Shown here piece by piece: positions 37,175 through 51,154 of a DNA stretch of 51,154 bases; the first letter of the stretch is position 1, and each line of letters starts with the position of its first letter. The translations under genes and the position numbers were made by a program. Where the stretch lies: the NCBI GenBank assembly GCA_902825985.1, contig CADEDC010000009.1, positions 1-51,154 on the forward strand, read 5' to 3'. This DNA is from an uncultured Acidobacteriota bacterium (GTDB lineage: Bacteria > Acidobacteriota > Vicinamibacteria > Vicinamibacterales > CAVVIG01). The notes beneath the pieces are model-generated. The model did not search any database and was not told the DNA's origin. It saw only the letters and a program-made list of their open reading frames with translations.

Positions 37175-37261
37175 CGCCGCCTCTGGGGTGTTTGACGGTA
37201 AAAATAGGGTAGGGGCAGTCGACGTGCCATGCAGGGCATCGTCACAATCAAGGAGCCGAGC

Positions 37262-37990
37262 ATGCGAGTGTCAAGGAACAAGCTGTGGCTGGCGGCTGGG
37301 GTGGTCGCCGCATCGTTTTTGCCGAGTGTCGCCATGGCCGCCTCGTCGGTGACCGGAACCATTACCTTCGACGGGAAAGCCCCGACGCTGAGGCCGCTCG
37401 CGATGGAAGCCGACCCCGACTGCGCCAAGAAGCACTCGGGCCCGGCAGCGAATGAGATGCTGGTCCTGGGCAGCGGCAGCACGATGGCGAACGTGATGGT
37501 GTGGGTCTCGAAAGGGCTCCCGGCCGGGAAGACGTATCCCGCCCCCAAGACGCCGGTGGTCATGGACCAGGTTGGCTGCCAGTACAAGCCGCATGTGATG
37601 GGCATCATGGTCGGCCAGCCCTACAGAATCCTCAATTCGGACGGCATCCTCCACAATATTCATACGCTCCCGAAGGTCAACAAGGCGTTCAACCGGGCGA
37701 TGCCGGCGACGCTCAAGGAGACGACCACGGCGTTCGACGCGGCCGAGGCGATTTTCAACATCAAGTGCGACGTGCATCCCTGGATGAGCGCCTACATCGG
37801 CGTCTTCACCCATCCCTTCTTCTCGGCGACGAGCACGGACGGGAAGTTCACGATCTCAGGGCTTGACCCGGGCACCTACGAGCTCACGGCCTGGCACGAA
37901 AGGCTGGGGACCCAGACGGCCTCGGTGACGGTCGGCGCCACTGACGCGAAGGTCCAGAACTTCAAGTTCACCCTGCCGGCCGCGAAATAG
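37262..37990 (+). CDS. Secreted blue-copper (cupredoxin) protein with carboxypeptidase-regulatory-like tail
   Basis: 242 aa from the ATG at 37262, fixed by AAGGAG seven bases upstream and by the signal peptide (residues 1-27, ending SVAMAASS). Type-1 copper ligands are visible: His131 in GILHNIHTLP and Cys169, His172, Met175 in KCDVHPWM. The cupredoxin spans about 30-185; Cys54 and Cys106 may form a disulfide. A short CarboxypepD_reg-like beta domain (FTISGLDPGTYELTAWHE) ends it. Its place between ActF and the coxA genes makes it the best candidate to carry electrons from the Act complex to CoxB's CuA. Confidence 0.8.
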   Translation: MRVSRNKLWLAAGVVAASFLPSVAMAASSVTGTITFDGKAPTLRPLAMEADPDCAKKHSGPAANEMLVLGSGSTMANVMVWVSKGLPAGKTYPAPKTPVVMDQVGCQYKPHVMGIMVGQPYRILNSDGILHNIHTLPKVNKAFNRAMPATLKETTTAFDAAEAIFNIKCDVHPWMSAYIGVFTHPFFSATSTDGKFTISGLDPGTYELTAWHERLGTQTASVTVGATDAKVQNFKFTLPAAK

Positions 37991-42004: not shown

Positions 42005-43486
42005 TCAGAGACTTGACGGCGGCACCTTCCCGAATATCTTCGGAGTCGGCATCCGCGCGCGGATCCGCTCGAGTTCGTCGACGGTGACGCGGTCAAGCCC
42101 TCGCGCCCGGCACGACGCTTCGACGTTCCTGACGACCATCCCCCGCACGAACGCCGGAATCCTCTTCATGCGCGCCGCGGCCTCATCCTCCCATGCGATG
42201 GTCGCGGGCGCTTCGGGACCGTACTCCATCGCGGGTGTGTCGCGGATGCCAGCGGCGGATGCCCCGCCGCGGATGGCAAGCAGAGGGGAACCGGTGAACT
42301 TCCCCGGGGTGTGGGTGCAGAGAGGGTCCTCGGCCATGAGATCTCCGGTCATCCCGTAGGCGCGGGCGCGGCAGCCCCCACAATGGCCGTTCATTTCGCA
42401 CTCCCCGCATCGGCCACCGAGCGAGGTGCGGCGGCGAACGTCGGCGAACAGCTCGGAGTTCGTCCACAGATCCGCGAGACTCGCCGTGCGAAGGCTGCCG
42501 GCGAACACCGGGAGGTAGGGGCAGGGAGTGACATCCCCATTCGGCCGGATCCCCATGTAGTGCGTCCCTGCCGGGCAGCCGCCGGCTCCGCCGGAGTACG
42601 TCCTGATGTGACCGGCAACCAGGTCGGCGGCCCCGCCAATCCCGGGGTCAACTCCGGCGCCGGACCGCTCGTCGACCGGTTCATCGAGGCCTCGGGAGCC
42701 ATCGTTGGCCCGCAGAGCGGCCGCGGGTGAGCCGGCATTCTCCAGAACGGTCTTGATGTAGTGCGGCGCGCACTTCGCGTTCACGAGCATTCGGCCGTCG
42801 TACTTCCGCTGGATCCGGTAGAGCGCGGCGAGAACCTCGTCGTACTGCGCGGCGGTCATGTCCGACACGAACTGCCCGCGCCCCGTCGGCACCAGGAAGT
42901 AGAGGTTCCAGACCTTCGCGGCGAGCCGCTCGTACGCGAAGTCGGCGATCGCATCGAGTTCGGCGACATTGTGCGAGCCCGCGGTGGTCTGCACGATGAA
43001 GGGGAGCCCGGTCCGGTTGAGGATTTCCGCTCCCTCCACCGTGTTCCGCCAGGCGCCCAGCACCCTCCGGAAGAGGTCGTGGCGGGCGGGATCGAGGGCA
43101 TCGAGTGAGAGGGACAGTCCCCGTGCTCCCGCTTCGGCCAGACGGCCGGCGACGTTCTCCGTGATACGCACACCGTTGGTGCCGACGACGACCCAGAGGC
43201 CACGCTCGGCGGCGCGGCGGACGATTTGCAGGATGTCGCGGCGCAGGAGCGGCTCGCCGCCGGTCAGGATCGTCACGCACTCGGGTGCGAAGGCGGCGAT
43301 CTCGTCGATGACCTTGAAGCACTCCTCGGTGCCGAGCTCGCTCCTGTCCGCAAAGTTCTCGGTGCCGACGCGAGGGGCGCTGCCGGCGTCCAGATAGCAG
43401 TGCTCGCAGGCAAGGTTGCAGCGGTAGGTGAGATTCCAGGAGATGACGTAGGGCCGGGCAAACGGGATCGTGTTGAGCATGTCCAT
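42005..43486 (-). CDS. Radical SAM/SPASM protein with C-terminal PCP_red domain
   Basis: 493 aa. Radical SAM cluster CxxxCxxC at Cys23, Cys27, Cys30 (YRCNLACEHCY), GGEPL at 76-80 and a SPASM region with Cys239, 304, 322, 360, 363, 369, 372 and 390 for auxiliary Fe-S clusters. Overall it resembles the heme-modifying NirJ/AhbD group. An insertion of about 50 residues (250-300) interrupts the SPASM part. Residues 432-480 (WEDEAAARMKRIPAFVRGMV then NVEAS) are a PCP_red-like domain. The ATG at 43486 follows the next gene upstream by 31 bases. It may modify a heme or peptide for the neighbouring cytochromes. Confidence 0.85.
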   Translation of the reverse strand: MDMLNTIPFARPYVISWNLTYRCNLACEHCYLDAGSAPRVGTENFADRSELGTEECFKVIDEIAAFAPECVTILTGGEPLLRRDILQIVRRAAERGLWVVVGTNGVRITENVAGRLAEAGARGLSLSLDALDPARHDLFRRVLGAWRNTVEGAEILNRTGLPFIVQTTAGSHNVAELDAIADFAYERLAAKVWNLYFLVPTGRGQFVSDMTAAQYDEVLAALYRIQRKYDGRMLVNAKCAPHYIKTVLENAGSPAAALRANDGSRGLDEPVDERSGAGVDPGIGGAADLVAGHIRTYSGGAGGCPAGTHYMGIRPNGDVTPCPYLPVFAGSLRTASLADLWTNSELFADVRRRTSLGGRCGECEMNGHCGGCRARAYGMTGDLMAEDPLCTHTPGKFTGSPLLAIRGGASAAGIRDTPAMEYGPEAPATIAWEDEAAARMKRIPAFVRGMVVRNVEASCRARGLDRVTVDELERIRARMPTPKIFGKVPPSSL

Positions 43487-43517
43487 CTCGATCTGACGTT
43501 CGTTCAAGCGACCCGCG

Positions 43518-44054
43518 TCACATGCCGAAGAAGTCCTTCGCGGCGTCGAGAACCCGTTCGTCCACTTCCGAAGCCCCCAAATCCCGCGCGAACTTCTCGA
43601 TGCCGGTCCGCGCCATGGGGCGAACGAACGCAGGGATGTTCGCGAGCCGGGCCTCTGCTGCGGATGTCCAGCGAACCGTGTCGGGTGCGCGGCGTTCTGC
43701 GGCATCAGCACCGGTCGAGGCGATAACGCCGGGCTCGTTCGTCTCGTCGGCCGCCGGGATCATCGCCTTGAACGGGCACCGGCCGCCCGCTTCTCCGGCC
43801 GCTCCGGCGACGCTTCCGGTGGCCGCGTCGACGCCGGCCTCCGCTCCGCCGACAGCGGCGGCCCCGGCGCCGGAGTCCGGTCCAATCCGGACGCCGAGCG
43901 ACTGGACGAGCTGCGTCTCGAACGGATTGGTCAGCATCGCCATCTCGTAGCCGCACTCGGGGCACTCATACACGACCGAGAGCGACCCGCGGTCGGGCGG
44001 ACCGACGGCCTGGAGCTTCATCGGGCTGTCGCAGGGCACGCAGAGGAACTTCAT
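43518..44054 (-). CDS. Zinc-ribbon protein with C-terminal PCP_red domain
   Basis: 178 aa. N-terminal CxxC...CxxC ribbon (Cys5, Cys8, Cys31, Cys34), a Gly/Ala-rich linker (about 58-92), one further Cys93 (GGRCPFKAMIP) and at 127-178 a PCP_red domain (VRWTSAAEARLANIPAFVRP then MARTGIEKFARDLG). No catalytic residues are evident, so it may be an adaptor that brings something to the same partner as the other PCP_red proteins. The ATG overlaps the Mrp stop by four bases. Confidence 0.8.
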   Translation of the reverse strand: MKFLCVPCDSPMKLQAVGPPDRGSLSVVYECPECGYEMAMLTNPFETQLVQSLGVRIGPDSGAGAAAVGGAEAGVDAATGSVAGAAGEAGGRCPFKAMIPAADETNEPGVIASTGADAAERRAPDTVRWTSAAEARLANIPAFVRPMARTGIEKFARDLGASEVDERVLDAAKDFFGM

Positions 44055-44935
44055 CGAGAAGGCTCCATTGGCGGTTCGAGGCTGTCCATGAGTTGCTGCG
44101 CGACCCGATCCAGTGCTCGGCCGACCGGGCTCGCAGGCAGATCCGCGAGCGGGATGCCCTGGTCGCAGTGTCGGGCGAGGTCGGGGTCGAACGGGACGGT
44201 GCCCAGGCAGGGAATGTCGAGGCCCGAGGATTCGGGCGAAGCAAAGAGCGGCTTGACGGCGTCGCAATCGCGGCAGTAGTAGCCGCTCATGTTCTCGACG
44301 TACCCGAGAATGCGGTTCGGTCCCTTCGACAGCGCGACCACCGAGCGGGCGACGACCCCGCGTGACACCTCTGAAGGGATCGTCACGAGCACGAACGAGG
44401 TCCGCGGTCCGAGAAAATCGGCGTACTGGACCGTCCGCTCGGCTCCCGGCGGCAGATCGAACATCAGCAGATCGAGCGCGCCCCACTCGAAGGACCGCAG
44501 GATCTCGCTGAGGAGCGAGAACTCCCTCGTGGCACGCCAGGTATGGGACTCGCCGTGCGCGGCGCTCTCGAACTCGAGCGCCTGCGATTCAGGGATCAGC
44601 GAGCCCATCGAGAAGACCGCGATGCCATTGCTCGTTCGCGGAAGCGCGACCTTGTGGCGACCCGGCACGAAAAGCGCCCCCTGGACACCCGCCATCCGGG
44701 CTTGTGAGGGGCCGTTGAAGTCCGCGTCGAGAATGGCAATCCGCAGCCCGCGGGCCCGCAGGGCGCCGGCGAGATGCAGCGTCAACGTGCTCTTGCCGAC
44801 GCCGCCCTTGCCGGATCCGACGGCCACGAGATGGCGCACCCCGGTGAGCCCGTCCGTGATGCGGCTGCGCTGCTCAGCGACCTGCTCGAGGATTCGTGAC
44901 CCTCCGTCGCCGCCGATGTCGTGGTAGCCCTTCAT
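44051..44935 (-). CDS. Mrp/NBP35-type P-loop ATPase (Fe-S carrier)
   Basis: 294 aa. Deviant Walker A VGSGKGGVGKST at 39-50, the LDADFNGPSQARM segment, DLPPGAERT and near the C-terminus ENMSGYYCRDCD with the Cys221-Cys224 pair that holds a bridging Fe-S cluster in Mrp/ApbC. It should carry or deliver Fe-S clusters. An extra sequence at about 105-140 is longer than in standard Mrp. It heads the operon Mrp - zinc-ribbon PCP_red - radical SAM PCP_red and is a likely Fe-S supplier for the latter. Confidence 0.88.
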   Translation of the reverse strand: MKGYHDIGGDGGSRILEQVAEQRSRITDGLTGVRHLVAVGSGKGGVGKSTLTLHLAGALRARGLRIAILDADFNGPSQARMAGVQGALFVPGRHKVALPRTSNGIAVFSMGSLIPESQALEFESAAHGESHTWRATREFSLLSEILRSFEWGALDLLMFDLPPGAERTVQYADFLGPRTSFVLVTIPSEVSRGVVARSVVALSKGPNRILGYVENMSGYYCRDCDAVKPLFASPESSGLDIPCLGTVPFDPDLARHCDQGIPLADLPASPVGRALDRVAQQLMDSLEPPMEPSR

Positions 44936-45046
44936 CGTTCAGTGGTTCCGAGGGCTGATAGCTTACACCGTCGCGGCCGCCCCGGACGAGGCGACAGGGG
45001 GACTGCAGCTTGCACTGCAGCTCGTCGTACGGGAGGGGGCTGGGCC

Positions 45047-45256
45047 ATGGACATCTGGACTGTCGCAATCGTCATCGCGCTCTGCATCGGGCTGTGGGTT
45101 CCGTATTTCATCGTATACATCCGCCGCGGGAAGGCGCGCGGGCACACCTGGTTCACCTGGAGGAAGCCACGGGGTCATTCGGACATCGGTCCGGACATCG
45201 GAGGGCCCCGACCAACCCGACCGGGCAAGGACGAGGCGATGGGAGCCCGCCACTGA
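45047..45256 (+). CDS. Small single-span membrane protein
   Basis: 69 aa from an ATG with GGGAGGGGG upstream. One hydrophobic segment (about 5-27, IWTVAIVIALCIGLWVPYF), then a basic cytoplasmic-like tail (RRGKARGHTWFTWRKP). No family recognised. It stands alone on the plus strand between the Mrp operon (start 44935) and the GNAT stop (45321). Confidence 0.5.
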   Translation: MDIWTVAIVIALCIGLWVPYFIVYIRRGKARGHTWFTWRKPRGHSDIGPDIGGPRPTRPGKDEAMGARH

Positions 45257-45320
45257 TGGCGTTGGAGCCCGCCACCGGCGGGATTGAGCCCTGGAGTTCG
45301 TCACGTTCGCAGAGGTTTGC

Positions 45321-46238
45321 TCAGGCGGACCGCGCCTTGGCTGCATAAAGGAAGTGGCTCTCGGCGGTTCTGAAGCCGAGCGCCTCCAGCAGCCCGTCCG
45401 GGAACTCTTCCGGGTGAACCTTCGAGAACCGGACGGTTCTCGGATCTCGCTGACGGAAGCGACCGAGCAGCCGTCTCAGTCGAGCGCCGCCGTCGTCCAT
45501 CGACGAACGAAGCGCCACGAGCTCCACAGGCGGCGGGTCGGCTCGCGGGCCGGTCTCCGTGTGTCCCTCGGGTTCCACCCCCGGCTCCCGATATAGCAGG
45601 TAGGCCTCGATCCGTTCCTCGGACGAGACGGCCAGTCCTGCGATCTGGTCCTTCCTTGCCGTGACCGTCTCGACCGAGCGGGCCCAGGCCGGCGCGCGAG
45701 TCTCCTCGAGGAGCCCATTGGCGACGAGGTCGTCGACGGTCACCGGGATCACGAACCGGCCGGCGTGCTCGTCGGACGCCATCTCCCCGGCTTCCGGGGC
45801 ATCGGCCGCTGCCGGCAGGACGTAGTCGGTAAGCAGGGCTTCGTGGACAAACCCGCTGGTCTTGAACAGCTCACAGGCAGGCGTGAGAACGGCCGGCACC
45901 TCGACGGTGATTCGGGGCGGTCCGATAATCGCGAGTTTCGACCCGAGCGACGCGAGCAGGTGACGGGCATGCCCCTGCCGCCGATGGTCCGGATGTACGG
46001 CGATCTTGTGGACCAGGGTCCCTGAAGTGCGCTTGGCGCCGATCAGGATGCCGACCGGATCGGATCCCGAGAAGGCGACCATGCAGCTGCTGCACCAGAC
46101 CTGGAGGTCGCGAATCGATCGCTTGAAGGCAGCCGAGGTCATCGGCGGCTCATCGGGGAACGACGGAGACCAGCAGCGGTTCAGCGCATCGACAAGGAGC
46201 GCCACGTCGTCGGTGCGGCAGAACCGGTACGCCGACAT
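45321..46238 (-). CDS. Double GNAT-fold acetyltransferase
   Basis: 305 aa. The first GNAT domain (about 1-140) has the acetyl-CoA loop HPDHRRQGHARHLLA and PACELFKTSGF. The second half (about 165-300) is a weaker GNAT-like fold ending PDGLLEALGFRTAESHFLYA. Such tandem GNATs act on small amines or proteins; the target is unknown. It begins 28 bases after the USP-PCP_red gene and is the last gene of that operon. Confidence 0.72.
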   Translation of the reverse strand: MSAYRFCRTDDVALLVDALNRCWSPSFPDEPPMTSAAFKRSIRDLQVWCSSCMVAFSGSDPVGILIGAKRTSGTLVHKIAVHPDHRRQGHARHLLASLGSKLAIIGPPRITVEVPAVLTPACELFKTSGFVHEALLTDYVLPAAADAPEAGEMASDEHAGRFVIPVTVDDLVANGLLEETRAPAWARSVETVTARKDQIAGLAVSSEERIEAYLLYREPGVEPEGHTETGPRADPPPVELVALRSSMDDGGARLRRLLGRFRQRDPRTVRFSKVHPEEFPDGLLEALGFRTAESHFLYAAKARSA

Positions 46239-46266
46239 CCCGTGGCACCCTCCGTCTCCGGATCAA

Positions 46267-48351
46267 TCAGTCCTGGCGTGAACTCGCCGACAGCGCTCTC
46301 ACCTCGTTGAGATAGCCACCATTCGCCGCGGGCTCCTGCCTGGAAGCCGCGACCTCGCTCCGGCCCGAAGCACCTGCCCCGGAGACCGCAGCCGGGGACA
46401 TCGCTGGCGCCGCGCCAGTGCCTGTGCCGGCCGACGACGGCGCTGAATAGGTCGCCATCATCTCAGCCATCATCTGTTTGCCGATCTCGATTCCGTCCTC
46501 GACGAGTGTGAGGTCAATCGCCGCGGCGGCCCGCTCCTGTGCCAGCGCTTCGATCCGCTCCTGCGTCTTGCCCCGCATGAAGCCGGCGGGGACGCGGAAG
46601 ATCCTCTGCACCGCCTCGTCGGTCCAGTCGAATGTCGAGATCAGCGGGTTCTTCCGGTCGTCACGCGCCACCAGTCTGGCGTCGCTCACGGCACCGCCGC
46701 TGGTGCCGGCGTCGGTCGCGCGCGGTCGCGCCACGTCCGTGGACGGGGACTGGATGTCGAGCACCGCTCCTGTCTCCTCCTCGATCACCTGACGGGCGAA
46801 TTCGAGCGTGATCGTGTCGAGCCGCTTCATGCGGGCGCTCTTCTCGACACGCGCCTTGACGCGCCGGCGCTGATAGGCGTTCTTCATGGTCCAGAGGCCC
46901 TTCCTGGCCTCCTCTGTCCAGCGCAGCTTGCGCCCGTCGTAGGTGGTCTCCTCCTCGAGGCCCCCCTCTACTTCTGCGATCCTCTCGATCATCTCCCGGG
47001 AGATGACTTCGAAGTCCGTGGCGCCGCAGACGGTGCACTTCACGGCGCCGCTCTGCGTGGCGGTGACACCGCACGCCCGGCACATCGACACCGGGCCAGA
47101 CCGGGCCCGCTCGAGCGCCACCGCCTCGGCAAGCGCCTTGGTCGCGTTCGAGGCGCTCTTCGGCATGAAGCGGTCCATCGCTTCGTCAATCACCGCGCTG
47201 GTAACCACCGAGTGCCCCTTCTCGAGGGCCAGACGGAGGACACCGGTGCGAGCGATGCCCTTGACCTGCTCGGGAACGCGTGTCATCCGTTCCTCGGCTT
47301 CGGGTGTCCATCGAACGGTCTCCTCGGCGCGCACGTCGAGGCGTGGCACCTCGAGGCGGGTGGACAGGAGGACGTCACAGGGAGCGCCGCGAAGGATGTT
47401 CTCGACGTTGCTCCCGAGCGCCCGCTCCTCCTTCGAGCTGTGGACGCCGATCCGCCCCAGCACGAGGAGCCAGGGATTCGTCTTGCGCGCATGGTCGAGG
47501 ATTTTCTGGAAGGGCTTGCCGTCGAGCAACGTCTTCTTGATCGGAACACCCATCTCGGTGGCCATCCGCTCGCCGACTTCGAGATGAGACTGATAGATCT
47601 GCGCGAGCCCGGTGTCGATGATCTCCTCGTGAAGCTGGTTCTGCTCTTCGAAGCGGAAGACCTTCGCGGCCTGTTCGGTCAGGACGTTGACGATGCCGTT
47701 GAACACCGAGTAGTGCAGATAGGGGTCGTACACGGCGATCGTCTCGATCTTCTTGTTGAAGGCGCGGGCCAGATCGACGGCGGTCATGAACGCGCCGAAT
47801 GACTGGGGACTGCCGTCGATACCGACCAGGATCGTGTCCCGTTCGGGCTCGTCCGGCTCGGGCACGTGCTTGACCACCCAGACGTCGCGGTCGCACTGGC
47901 GGGCGACGCGTTCGCAAACCGAACCGATGACGCTGTCCTTGGACCGCCCGATTCCGAGAGCGCCGATGACGACCAGATCGTGGGCTGATCCCTCGAGATC
48001 CTTGAGGATCTCGGCGTGGTGCTTGCCATCCATCATCCGCGGCTCGAACTCAAGCTGCGACTCGCGACAGAGCCGCGACATGCCGTCGAGATAGCTGTCG
48101 GAGATGAGCTTGAGTCCCATCGTGATGAGGCTGTCGTGGATCTTCCGCTGGCGCTCGAGTTCCACCTCGTCGATGTACTCCTCGGGCAGGGTGTACTCCA
48201 TCTGCCTGAAGCGATAGTCGTGCAGCTTCGCCGCGTACACATGGCAGCCGGCCAGTTTCGCCGAATAGGCCTTGCCCAGGTCGACGGCGCAGGCGACGGC
48301 GCGGTTGGAGTAGTCCGAGTTGTCGACGGGGACGTAGATGCTCTTGTACAT
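46267..48351 (-). CDS. Tandem universal stress protein with zinc ribbon and three PCP_red domains
   Basis: 694 aa, far longer than usual USPs. USP 1 at 1-162 (GALGIGRSKDSVIGS marks the nucleotide loop) and USP 2 at 170-332 (ILVGIDGSPQSFGAFM; LGRIGVHSSKEERALGSNVE). PCP_red-like domain 1 at 346-395 (VRWTPEAEERMTRVP then VKGIART), a zinc ribbon with Cys424, 427, 439, 442, domain 2 at 476-525 (LRWTEEARKGLWTMKNAY; degenerate) and domain 3 at 575-632 (FDWTDEAVQRIFRVPAGFMR). The last 60 residues are Ala/Ser-rich. It looks like a nucleotide-responsive scaffold. GGAGAG precedes the ATG; 27 bases separate it from the cytochrome gene. Confidence 0.85.
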   Translation of the reverse strand: MYKSIYVPVDNSDYSNRAVACAVDLGKAYSAKLAGCHVYAAKLHDYRFRQMEYTLPEEYIDEVELERQRKIHDSLITMGLKLISDSYLDGMSRLCRESQLEFEPRMMDGKHHAEILKDLEGSAHDLVVIGALGIGRSKDSVIGSVCERVARQCDRDVWVVKHVPEPDEPERDTILVGIDGSPQSFGAFMTAVDLARAFNKKIETIAVYDPYLHYSVFNGIVNVLTEQAAKVFRFEEQNQLHEEIIDTGLAQIYQSHLEVGERMATEMGVPIKKTLLDGKPFQKILDHARKTNPWLLVLGRIGVHSSKEERALGSNVENILRGAPCDVLLSTRLEVPRLDVRAEETVRWTPEAEERMTRVPEQVKGIARTGVLRLALEKGHSVVTSAVIDEAMDRFMPKSASNATKALAEAVALERARSGPVSMCRACGVTATQSGAVKCTVCGATDFEVISREMIERIAEVEGGLEEETTYDGRKLRWTEEARKGLWTMKNAYQRRRVKARVEKSARMKRLDTITLEFARQVIEEETGAVLDIQSPSTDVARPRATDAGTSGGAVSDARLVARDDRKNPLISTFDWTDEAVQRIFRVPAGFMRGKTQERIEALAQERAAAAIDLTLVEDGIEIGKQMMAEMMATYSAPSSAGTGTGAAPAMSPAAVSGAGASGRSEVAASRQEPAANGGYLNEVRALSASSRQD

Positions 48352-48378: not shown

Positions 48379-50136
48379 TCACGCTCGCGTGGCTGTCAGT
48401 TGGCTCGGCTCGTCGCCGAGCTCCGTGCGGGCGCGAGAACCGTTGCGCCACCGTACCCAGCCGATCAGGGCCAGCTCGATGACGAGAATGAAAAGTGCTG
48501 TCTGCACCATCGGCCCGACTGCCGATGGGACGACTTCTGGTTCGACGTAGATCGAGTACCAAGCCGTGAGCCCGCGGCGGTTGCCGCGCTCGCGCGAAAA
48601 CCCGTCCCACACCGAGAAGGCCACCGGCAGGAACTGGCCCTGGGCGAATGCCGCCCCCGAGGTCGCACGAAGGGGCCGCTTGAGGATCACCGACCACTCG
48701 CCCTGGTCGTAGGTCGCGACGCCGGTGAGGTCGCCGGTATCGTTGGGCTCGACCGACTCGCTTCCCCGGCCGGTCATCTGCAGCGGGTCGGGCCGGGCCA
48801 GATCGAAGAACCAGAGATCCACCGGGTTCTGGGCGTCGCCGTAAATGAAGTAGGGCTGGCGGGATCCGGCGGGCACCTGCGACGGAATCTGCACCGCAAC
48901 GGCATCCGAGAATTCCGAGGGCCGACTGGCCGGGGCCGTGTCCGGCTCGGCGAACGGGTCCGCGGCCACCTGACCCGCCGGGGGCTCGGCGATCTCCTGA
49001 TCGCCGAATGGGTTCGCGGACGGGTCGCCGCCACTTCCGCCACCGTCGGCCGGTGCCACGGCGCCGGCGGCCGGCTCCTCCTCTTCCTCGGTGGGCACTG
49101 GAAGCGTCGGCCCGTTGGTCCCCGTCTTCTCGGCGCTCATGTCGTGCCAGCGCAGGAGGAGGGCGATTGAATCGGCGTCGTAGATTGCCTGCACCGTGAC
49201 GCCGGTCACGGGCGGATGGAAGGACCGTCCCGGCTCCATGATCTGCCCGACGATAGGAAAGCGTGCCGGCGGTGCAGATGCGAAGCTCTCGGCCCCCTTC
49301 GCCAGATCGATCGCTTCCTCGACGTGCCGAGCGACGACGAGGTTCTCGTAGCCAGGCCCGTCAGCCGGCGAGAGGGAGGCGATGAAGTCGGTGATCGCCC
49401 AGCGCTGTTCGGCCGGGAGCGCCTCCTGGAACGACGGCATGGGCGTGCCGTTGAGTCCCGTGCTCATCGTTCTGAAGATGTCCTCGCGGGATGAACCGCC
49501 CCGGAACGTCCATCTCTGCGCAAGGTCGGCCGCACGTATCGGGTGGCCCCAGTCGTCGACGAGCGTCGGAGCCGAGGGTCCGTCACCGCGACCGAGCGTG
49601 CCGTGGCACTTGACGCAACCGTTCTCCTCGTAGAGCCGTTTCCCGAGCTCGACGGACTCGTTGGTGGCGTTGGGCCCGCTCTCCAGGGGAACCGGCTGAG
49701 GGACGTTCTCGGCGTTCGCGAAGTCGGCGGAGAACGTCTTGATGAAGTAGGCGAGATCCGACACTTCCTGGTCCGACAGGTTGGGCCAGGCCGGCATCGA
49801 CGTGTACGGCATCCCACGTCTGATGATGTTCACGAGGTCCTGGTGCGTCGGAAGCGCTCCGTTGGGCGTCGTACGGATCTTGAACTTGCCCGAGGTGAGG
49901 TCACGCGGCCGGGGCCTGAGGTGCGAGCTGGCGTAGCCCTCGCCGTCTCCCTTCTCGCCGTGGCACTGCGAGCAGTACTGGAGATAGAGCACCTTCCCCG
50001 ACTCCCGCTGGGCCTCGGTCCCCAGGTCGGGGCCCTGGGCGCGCACCGACTGCGTCGGCGCGGTGGTCAAGACGGAAATCAGCAGCAGCCCGGCCAGACA
50101 TCCAAGCGCGCGCGGTGCGGTGAGACAGGTGGTCAT
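48379..50136 (-). CDS. Diheme cytochrome c fused to an ethylbenzene-dehydrogenase-type heme domain
   Basis: 585 aa, with signal peptide (1-33). Two c-type heme sites: Cys55-x-x-Cys58-His59 and Cys174-x-x-Cys177-His178, each with Met candidates later (Met114, Met233). Residues about 265-535 are an EB_dh (PF09459-like) heme-b domain as in the gamma subunits of type II DMSO-reductase-family enzymes; its C-terminal VWDGFSRERGNRRGLTAWYS is typical. An acidic, Pro/Ala/Gly-rich insert at about 345-408 breaks it. One C-terminal membrane anchor (545-563). It is an electron-transfer protein in the periplasm. The ATG overlaps the upstream cytochrome stop by four bases. Confidence 0.85.
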   Translation of the reverse strand: MTTCLTAPRALGCLAGLLLISVLTTAPTQSVRAQGPDLGTEAQRESGKVLYLQYCSQCHGEKGDGEGYASSHLRPRPRDLTSGKFKIRTTPNGALPTHQDLVNIIRRGMPYTSMPAWPNLSDQEVSDLAYFIKTFSADFANAENVPQPVPLESGPNATNESVELGKRLYEENGCVKCHGTLGRGDGPSAPTLVDDWGHPIRAADLAQRWTFRGGSSREDIFRTMSTGLNGTPMPSFQEALPAEQRWAITDFIASLSPADGPGYENLVVARHVEEAIDLAKGAESFASAPPARFPIVGQIMEPGRSFHPPVTGVTVQAIYDADSIALLLRWHDMSAEKTGTNGPTLPVPTEEEEEPAAGAVAPADGGGSGGDPSANPFGDQEIAEPPAGQVAADPFAEPDTAPASRPSEFSDAVAVQIPSQVPAGSRQPYFIYGDAQNPVDLWFFDLARPDPLQMTGRGSESVEPNDTGDLTGVATYDQGEWSVILKRPLRATSGAAFAQGQFLPVAFSVWDGFSRERGNRRGLTAWYSIYVEPEVVPSAVGPMVQTALFILVIELALIGWVRWRNGSRARTELGDEPSQLTATRA

Positions 50137-50951
50137 GGCTCAGCGACCTCCTCCGTGGCGCGCGGCCGCTGGCCGGTGAACTCGTAGAGGAAGAGGATGA
50201 CGTCCCAGATTTCCTCCTCGGTGAGAAACTTCTCCCAGGCGGGCATGGCCGTGGCCCAGGGTCCGCCTTCCTCGGGAAGTCCAGGACCGCCTTTGGCAAT
50301 CCTCCAGAACAGGAAGGTCTCCTGCAACATCGCGATCGTCCCAGGGTCGGCAAAGTTGGTCGGGATGGGGTCCAGTCCGTGGACGAACATGCCGTTGCCG
50401 GCCAGGTTGTCGCCGTGGCAGAAGACGCAGTTCCGATAGTAGACCTGGCGCCCCTTCTCGACATGACCGCGGAACTCGTCCGGATTCGAGGTCTCGAGAT
50501 GCCGGAACGGGTTCTCGCCGGCGTTGAGGTCGACCTTCTTCTCACCAACCGTGATCTCCGCCGGCGACGCCGGATGGACCGTTCGCGAAAACAGCGGCGG
50601 CTCGAGCGGAACGTTCATCTGCACGTAGACATTCGCGGCCGCGAGCGCCGGGATGGCGATGACCGCGGCACCCAGGGACGCGGTGTACCGTTTGTCGGTC
50701 ATGAACCGGACCAGCGGGCCGGCGATTTCCCCGCGGCGCTCGTCGCTCGACGATACGTACGCCGCAATCGCGAGCGTCACGATTCCCATGTAGATCGTCA
50801 CGACGGACGACGGGATCGGAACGGTGAACCCGAATCGCAGGAGGAGGTAGAGCCCTACCCACCAGGCGCCGGCCCATACCAGCAGGCTGGCGCGGCGGAA
50901 GCGCAGAACGCCGAACACGGCGGCCACGGCGAGGACGACCAGGATGTTCAT
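50133..50951 (-). CDS. Membrane-bound cytochrome c
   Basis: 272 aa. About three to four hydrophobic segments in the first 110 residues (MNILVVLAVAAVFGVLRF, WAGAWWVGLYLLLRFGF and two more), then a monoheme cytochrome c with Cys175-x-x-Cys178-His179 (RNCVFCHG) and Met236 as likely axial ligand. Residues 112-170 are a linker. It could be a cytochrome-c1-like subunit of a quinol-oxidising complex whose other genes lie to the right. The ATG at 50951 overlaps the stop of the next gene by four bases. Confidence 0.85.
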   Translation of the reverse strand: MNILVVLAVAAVFGVLRFRRASLLVWAGAWWVGLYLLLRFGFTVPIPSSVVTIYMGIVTLAIAAYVSSSDERRGEIAGPLVRFMTDKRYTASLGAAVIAIPALAAANVYVQMNVPLEPPLFSRTVHPASPAEITVGEKKVDLNAGENPFRHLETSNPDEFRGHVEKGRQVYYRNCVFCHGDNLAGNGMFVHGLDPIPTNFADPGTIAMLQETFLFWRIAKGGPGLPEEGGPWATAMPAWEKFLTEEEIWDVILFLYEFTGQRPRATEEVAEP

Positions 50952-51154
50952 GGGGCAATCGCTCCATCGCGCCGCGCCACCATGCGGTGGGCAAGCGGCT
51001 GGAAAATCGCGAGGGCGCTCACCGCATGCTGCCACACGCCGGCCTCGCCTGCCCCGGCGACCGCCACCGTGGGCGCGGAAGCTGCGGGCGCCTGCCACGC
51101 ACCTGTCGTGGATGTGGCGGCGGGCGTTGCGGCGGGCGTTGCGGGCGCGGCAGC
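50948..51154 (-). CDS. C-terminal end of an unidentified protein (partial, right edge)
   Basis: 68 codons are open from the right edge to the TGA at 50948, in frame and overlapping the next gene by ATGA. The edge segment is Ala/Pro/Thr-rich (two copies of PAAT) and the last 30 residues end VWQHAVSALAIFQPLAHRMV and RRDGAIAP. The main part is outside the window, so the family cannot be told. By position it would be the previous subunit of the cytochrome operon. Confidence 0.6.
   Translation of the reverse strand, partial: AAAPATPAATPAATSTTGAWQAPAASAPTVAVAGAGEAGVWQHAVSALAIFQPLAHRMVARRDGAIAP

Follow-up and report, generated by a model that had tools for sequence, protein, structure and literature searches.

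PCP_red domains in three neighbouring genes

The DNA analysed here, referred to as the window, comprises 51,154 nucleotides at the start of a 107.5 kb contig (CADEDC010000009.1) from an uncultured Acidobacteriota bacterium. It carries three neighbouring genes that encode PCP_red domains (PF08369), a domain known mainly as the tail of BchB. A profile search of the whole 5.85 Mb genome revealed five PF08369 matches, all located inside the window and on the minus strand. A radical SAM/SPASM protein and a zinc-ribbon protein contain one match each, and a tandem universal stress protein (USP) contains the remaining three (Table 1). Thus, five PCP_red-like domains in three neighbouring genes, as proposed in the initial annotation, were indeed recovered. 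The proposal also withstands the curated Pfam cut-off of 32.5 bits, which is reached by four of the five copies, whereas the middle USP copy (21.2 bits) falls below; the next-best match in the genome (14.8 bits) is at noise level. A profile built from the other copies locates the middle USP copy in 17 of 17 orthologues (i-E values 5e-7 to 0.05), and in the AlphaFold model it displays the short-long-medium helix pattern of copies 1 and 3. As judged by alignment and model, it is a divergent PCP_red domain, conserved in the orthologues and predicted to form three helices.

Outside the window, PF08369 detected no PCP_red domain in this genome, and hence no BchB was found. The initial statement that bchB, bchN and bchL are missing from the window therefore holds for bchB, while bchN and bchL were not searched separately. 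Matches to the BchB model span the C-terminal domain only, and the nitrogenase-type oxidoreductase domain that precedes PCP_red in BchB is absent. A cryptic chlorophyll pathway was rejected on these grounds, that is the confinement of PCP_red to the window and the limited extent of the BchB-model matches.

The start of the radical SAM gene was corrected by conservation to about position 43486. The three motif cysteines and the SPASM auxiliary-cluster cysteines of its product are invariant across 18 orthologues, as in radical SAM/SPASM enzymes. Among the NCBIfam models AhbD scored best (287 bits), followed by NirJ2 (277 bits), with PqqE far behind (116 bits); the AhbD score lies below the cut-off of that model (TIGR04545; 500 bits), and the NirJ2 score is likewise below its curated cut-off. 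All 18 orthologues match AhbD and NirJ2, with AhbD yielding the best E-value of any family. The substrates of AhbD and NirJ are heme precursors (PMC7242693). The closest solved structures, PqqE, SuiB and SkfB, all act on peptides. The AlphaFold models are of moderate quality (mean pLDDT 70 and 73).

The start of the zinc-ribbon gene was also corrected by conservation, in this case to 44054. A CPF motif in its product is found in 44 of 45 zinc-ribbon matches; the single remaining match is no true zinc-ribbon protein. Motifs of the Cys-Pro type are known to be heme-regulatory. The CPF motif sits in an otherwise variable linker and is retained even by zinc-ribbon orthologues that lack PCP_red. 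The third protein contains two Usp stretches, as expected for a tandem USP; the ATP motif G2XG9XGS is present in USP domain 1 and is one residue longer in domain 2, and the fold is closest to ATP-binding tandem USPs. Its LNEV-like tail comes after a disordered linker and is possibly a docking peptide. The Mrp carrier and the two cytochromes c were found on the same strand, as initially described; the GNAT protein, however, had been taken for a tandem, and Pfam recognizes one GNAT domain in its N-terminal half.

Table 1. Coordinates and supporting evidence for the PCP_red genes, their motifs and their neighbours in the window.
Feature	Position	Strand	Evidence
Radical SAM/SPASM protein with C-terminal PCP_red, about 493 aa	42005..43486 (start approximate)	-	PF04055 78 bits, SPASM 38 bits
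PCP_red of radical SAM protein	42062..42193	-	PF08369 52.6 bits (genome search); 47 bits in protein search
CX3CX2C radical SAM motif CNLACEHC	43397..43420	-	sequence
Zinc-ribbon protein (MKFLCxxC...CPxC) with C-terminal PCP_red, 178 aa	43518..44054	-	PF08369 57.9 bits
PCP_red of zinc-ribbon protein	43536..43670	-	PF08369 61.4 bits (genome search); 57.9 bits in protein search
CPF motif, linker between zinc ribbon and PCP_red	43770..43778	-	resembles heme-regulatory CP motif
Mrp/ApbC-type Fe-S carrier ATPase, P-loop and CRDC motif	44051..44935	-	PF10609 174 bits, motifs
GNAT-family protein	45321..46238	-	PF00583, PF13508; island member in 16/18 genomes
Tandem USP with internal zinc ribbon and three PCP_red, 694 aa	46267..48351	-	Usp 136 bits, PCP_red 69 bits in 3 stretches
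LNEV tail, conserved C-terminal end of USP protein	46300..46311	-	NE[VITL] near end in 86/98 homologues
USP PCP_red copy 3	46498..46626	-	35.0 bits
USP PCP_red copy 2, divergent	46789..46920	-	21.2 bits
Zinc-ribbon-like CX2C...CX2C between PCP_red copies 1 and 2 of USP	47023..47082	-	cysteines invariant in alignment A1
USP PCP_red copy 1	47179..47310	-	40.0 bits
Fusion of two cytochrome c domains with EB_dh (resembling the heme b subunit of type II DMSO reductases)	48379..50136	-	PF00034, PF13442, PF09459
Membrane-anchored cytochrome c, N-terminal extent uncertain	50133..51098	-	PF13442 39 bits

The PCP_red genes are linked to a CydA-like oxidase cluster

A conserved cluster and near-perfect co-occurrence link the PCP_red genes to an oxidase. 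Across 18 genomes of the window's phylum (Acidobacteriota), the radical SAM, USP and CydA-like genes were present in every genome, Mrp and the cytochrome c/EB_dh fusion in 17 and GNAT in 16. The usual order is ActA-ActB-cytochrome c-CydA-like-cytochrome c-cytochrome c/EB_dh-USP-GNAT-Mrp-zinc ribbon-radical SAM, often beside aa3 oxidase genes; in some of these genomes its members lie on different contigs or far apart. The USP alignment was scanned against 84,980 species genomes, which yielded 219 loci. Eighty loci were kept, and most of these, from other species, retain recognisable parts of the island. The CydA-like gene was detected in all 15 genomes sampled through the USP loci. As phylum names in record titles are unreliable, our claim of breadth rests on the two phyla that were searched genome-wide. 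For instance, the titles of L088, L092 and L115 (Acidimicrobiia, Cyanobacteria and Deltaproteobacteria) conflict with the window's phylum (G001, G168 and G386), and these labels of metagenome-assembled genomes look wrong.

Co-occurrence was assessed in 396 genomes of the window's phylum, 43 of which contain PCP_red and 38 the CydA-like gene. Both were present in 37 genomes, the CydA-like gene only in one, PCP_red only in six and neither in 352. That is, PCP_red occurs in 37 of 38 CydA-like-positive as compared to 6 of 358 CydA-like-negative genomes (Fisher 1e-44, a value that ignores shared ancestry), and the doubly positive genomes span 16 families. The sole CydA-like-positive genome without PCP_red is 77% complete. 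Three of the six genomes with PCP_red only are from one genus, and its one examined member (G166) encodes full-length BchB and BchZ; in G379, which also belongs to the six, the contig begins inside or next to the USP gene and the neighbours on that side are unassembled.

A corresponding picture was obtained for Methylomirabilota, with 57 genomes containing both, two the CydA-like gene only, seven PCP_red only and 29 neither (57 of 59 versus 7 of 36; Fisher 1e-15, again ignoring shared ancestry). In this phylum, the CydA-like gene lies in the same cluster in all four regions that were read, and the cluster is arranged either as CydA-like-cytochrome c-cytochrome c/EB_dh-CtaC-CtaD-CtaE-USP-radical SAM-Mrp (G400) or as USP-radical SAM-Mrp-zinc ribbon-CydA-like-cytochrome c/EB_dh (G418 and G415). 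The idea that Rokubacteria represent a variant without the CydA-like gene was discarded, as whole-genome search and longer regions show the gene in the same cluster. The gene order is rearranged while membership is retained, which is a strong sign of functional linkage. Conserved linkage in related genomes, on which the initial annotation had made its proposal depend, is strong in the window's phylum and extends to a second one. Its guess that the shared partner might be a cytochrome complex fits as well: the constant companion is the CydA-like subunit together with cytochromes c.

The two cytochromes noticed initially are present but represent only the tail of a longer cluster that continues beyond the end of the window. 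A run of 100 N (contig positions 51155-51254), just past this end, interrupts the cytochrome genes. Beyond the gap, the same strand encodes cytochrome c sequence, a CydA-like protein of 633 aa, a further cytochrome c, ActB and ActA. The match of the CydA-like protein to PF01654 covers profile positions 2-240 of 418 only, that is the N-terminal half, and CydA chains in the PDB can be aligned with roughly its first 250 residues but no further. In Nitrospina and Nitrospira, the bd-like oxidases likewise exhibit CydA homology in the N-terminal half and miss the quinol-binding residues (PMC3578206). Such proteins have been named OR-N, with cytochrome c as the proposed donor, and published accounts note that neither their subunits nor their function have been confirmed by experiment (PMC10839748). 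In Nitrospirales, an OR-N5 member is encoded directly downstream of the ActABCDE genes (PMC12342949). With CydA homology confined to its N-terminal half and a C-terminal half that differs from canonical CydA, the CydA-like subunit of the window's cluster would classify as bd-like or OR-N-type, an assignment based on the extent of this homology.

Two further neighbours deserve mention. The cytochrome c/EB_dh fusion is a near-constant companion (17 of 18 genomes and 63 of 80 loci) and might be the client of the PCP_red module. A carboxypeptidase-regulatory-like protein (37229-37990) precedes CtaD in the window and in several other genomes, and the Rokubacteria clusters contain a similarly placed family (u9).

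A possible maturation module and competing explanations

What could be the function of the PCP_red genes? In the best-supported reading, to which we give about an even chance, the PCP_red proteins together with the Mrp ATPase, and usually GNAT, constitute a dedicated maturation module that handles heme for the bd-like (OR-N-type) oxidase cluster. We infer heme as the cargo as well as every molecular step of this scheme. At the core of the oxidase cluster would stand the CydA-like subunit, accompanied by cytochromes c and the cytochrome c/EB_dh protein. PCP_red, which in BchB belongs to a tetrapyrrole-binding enzyme, may be a small helical unit used for docking or for handling tetrapyrroles. 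A cytosolic scaffold would be provided by the tandem USP, which has three copies and a nucleotide-binding motif in its first domain, while the zinc-ribbon protein may carry or sense heme through its CPF motif. The AhbD-like radical SAM enzyme could modify heme or a subunit peptide, and Mrp would supply it with Fe-S clusters.

The choice of heme follows several clues. Genes matching HemH (ferrochelatase), HemY and a HemQ-like protein adjoin the island or its radical SAM gene in two genomes (G168 and G386), joined by HemE in G168 only, and genes that look CtaA/CtaB-like by sequence appearance, no profile having been run, are found in the Rokubacteria operon. The initial annotation had considered a tetrapyrrole assembly site, and this guess gains indirect support: the best NCBIfam score for AhbD, the invariant CPF motif and the adjoining heme biosynthesis genes in some genomes point to heme by association. 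HemQ is present in 13 of 37 module-bearing and in 129 of 359 other genomes (p=1), HemF in at least eight module-bearing genomes and ferrochelatase in 13 of 13 genomes tested. A mere stand-in for HemQ would be expected where HemQ is missing, but the distribution of HemQ, HemF, HemN_C and HemH shows no correlation with the module. A housekeeping role in heme b synthesis is therefore disfavoured and a role specific for the bd-like complex is favoured. In G231, whose island is locus L073, no HemQ, HemF or HemN_C match was obtained, although ferrochelatase is present.

Several points weigh against a maturation module. USPs are known mainly as stress or regulatory proteins, and CP motifs may be structural or redox-active instead of heme-binding. 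The AhbD score of the radical SAM protein falls well short of the cut-off, and SPASM relatives of the protein also modify peptides. Moreover, zinc-ribbon orthologues in G199, G372 and L129 are devoid of PCP_red yet otherwise intact, indicating that the domain is not obligatory on this protein. The notion of PCP_red as a tag common to all partners is weakened thereby.

The chief rival, which we regard as tentative, is a cytosolic sensor or regulator. That is, the tandem USP, the zinc-ribbon protein and GNAT would respond to heme, oxygen or the energy state by adjusting how much oxidase is made or how active it is, with PCP_red providing mere protein-protein docking. The kinship with ATP-binding tandem USPs and the G2XG9XGS motif in USP domain 1, the presence of GNAT in 16 of 18 islands and a CPF motif that could sense heme would all suit such a role. 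In Nitrospira marina, UspA proteins encoded beside low-oxygen-induced respiratory clusters rise with them, and a regulatory role has been proposed (PMC8115632). However, the cluster also encodes a seemingly active radical SAM/SPASM enzyme and an Mrp Fe-S carrier, suggesting chemistry beyond signalling. A further reading, rather unlikely in our view, is an undescribed pathway in which the AhbD-like enzyme produces a non-standard heme destined for the bd-like oxidase. PCP_red, shared with chlorophyll biosynthesis, would then be a general tetrapyrrole-handling domain by which the cofactor is handed on among the enzyme, the zinc-ribbon carrier and the USP scaffold.

Alternatively, the radical SAM protein might act as a peptide-modifying SPASM enzyme that introduces a crosslink or another modification into a subunit of the oxidase cluster, PCP_red docking the substrate. 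The closest solved structures would agree with this scenario, but NCBIfam ranks AhbD and NirJ2 far above PqqE, and no small conserved precursor peptide gene was noticed, open reading frames under 60-70 aa not having been searched; we therefore judge it quite improbable. Still more doubtful is an oxygen-independent heme b synthase, i.e. an AhbD-like coproheme decarboxylase replacing HemQ in the coproporphyrin pathway with the other PCP_red proteins as carriers. AhbD as best match, the HemE, ferrochelatase, HemY and HemQ-like genes adjoining the island in G168 and/or G386 and the gene content of G231 speak for it, but HemQ occurs at the same frequency whether or not the module is present, the genomes with HemF may use the protoporphyrin route, and the score remains under the AhbD cut-off. 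Finally, PCP_red genes as unrelated cargo co-inherited with a respiratory island, which may spread by vertical or horizontal descent through genomes that are not independent, are highly improbable given that membership is kept at about 50-60% identity, in different arrangements and in two phyla.

Relation to known systems

The genes that track the bd-like oxidase almost one-to-one across two phyla provide a concrete list of candidate maturation factors for a type of oxidase known from nitrite oxidisers as well as from uncultured bacteria of soils and sediments. PCP_red is widespread in non-phototrophs in a respiratory setting, and its role becomes directly testable outside photosynthesis. Searches of the open literature, in which few subscription journals are covered, turned up no publication that connects PCP_red to USP, radical SAM or bd-like oxidases; they gave nothing relevant on PF08369 or Asr4154 and nothing usable on the C-terminal region of BchB.

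The PCP_red domains described here belong to the same Pfam family as those of BchB/ChlB of dark protochlorophyllide reductase and of the stand-alone protein Asr4154 (PDB 2KRU, 2L09), and the zinc-ribbon copy matches both by sequence. In contrast to BchB/ChlB, the window proteins come without a nitrogenase-like catalytic domain or a chlorophyll pathway and carry PCP_red fused to radical SAM, zinc-ribbon and USP proteins. The radical SAM protein shares its radical SAM and SPASM cysteines with AhbD, NirJ2 and TIGR04053, the best-scoring curated families, but differs by its score (287 bits versus the AhbD cut-off of 500), by the extra PCP_red tail and by its context, which is an oxidase rather than siroheme-dependent heme or heme d1 synthesis. 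The tandem USPs TTHA0350, Rv2623 and UspE resemble the window USP in fold over its first about 330 residues, to which the latter adds about 360 residues comprising three PCP_red domains, the zinc ribbon and the LNEV tail. With the OR-N/bd-like oxidases of Nitrospina and Nitrospirales, the cluster has in common that CydA homology is restricted to the N-terminal half, that genes resembling alternative complex III lie upstream and that cytochromes c are nearby, whereas a term search of the respective reports gave no mention of accessory genes of the radical SAM or universal stress type (PMC3578206, PMC10839748, PMC12342949). Accessory modules dedicated to terminal oxidases are already known, and it is the present composition of such a module that appears to be new.

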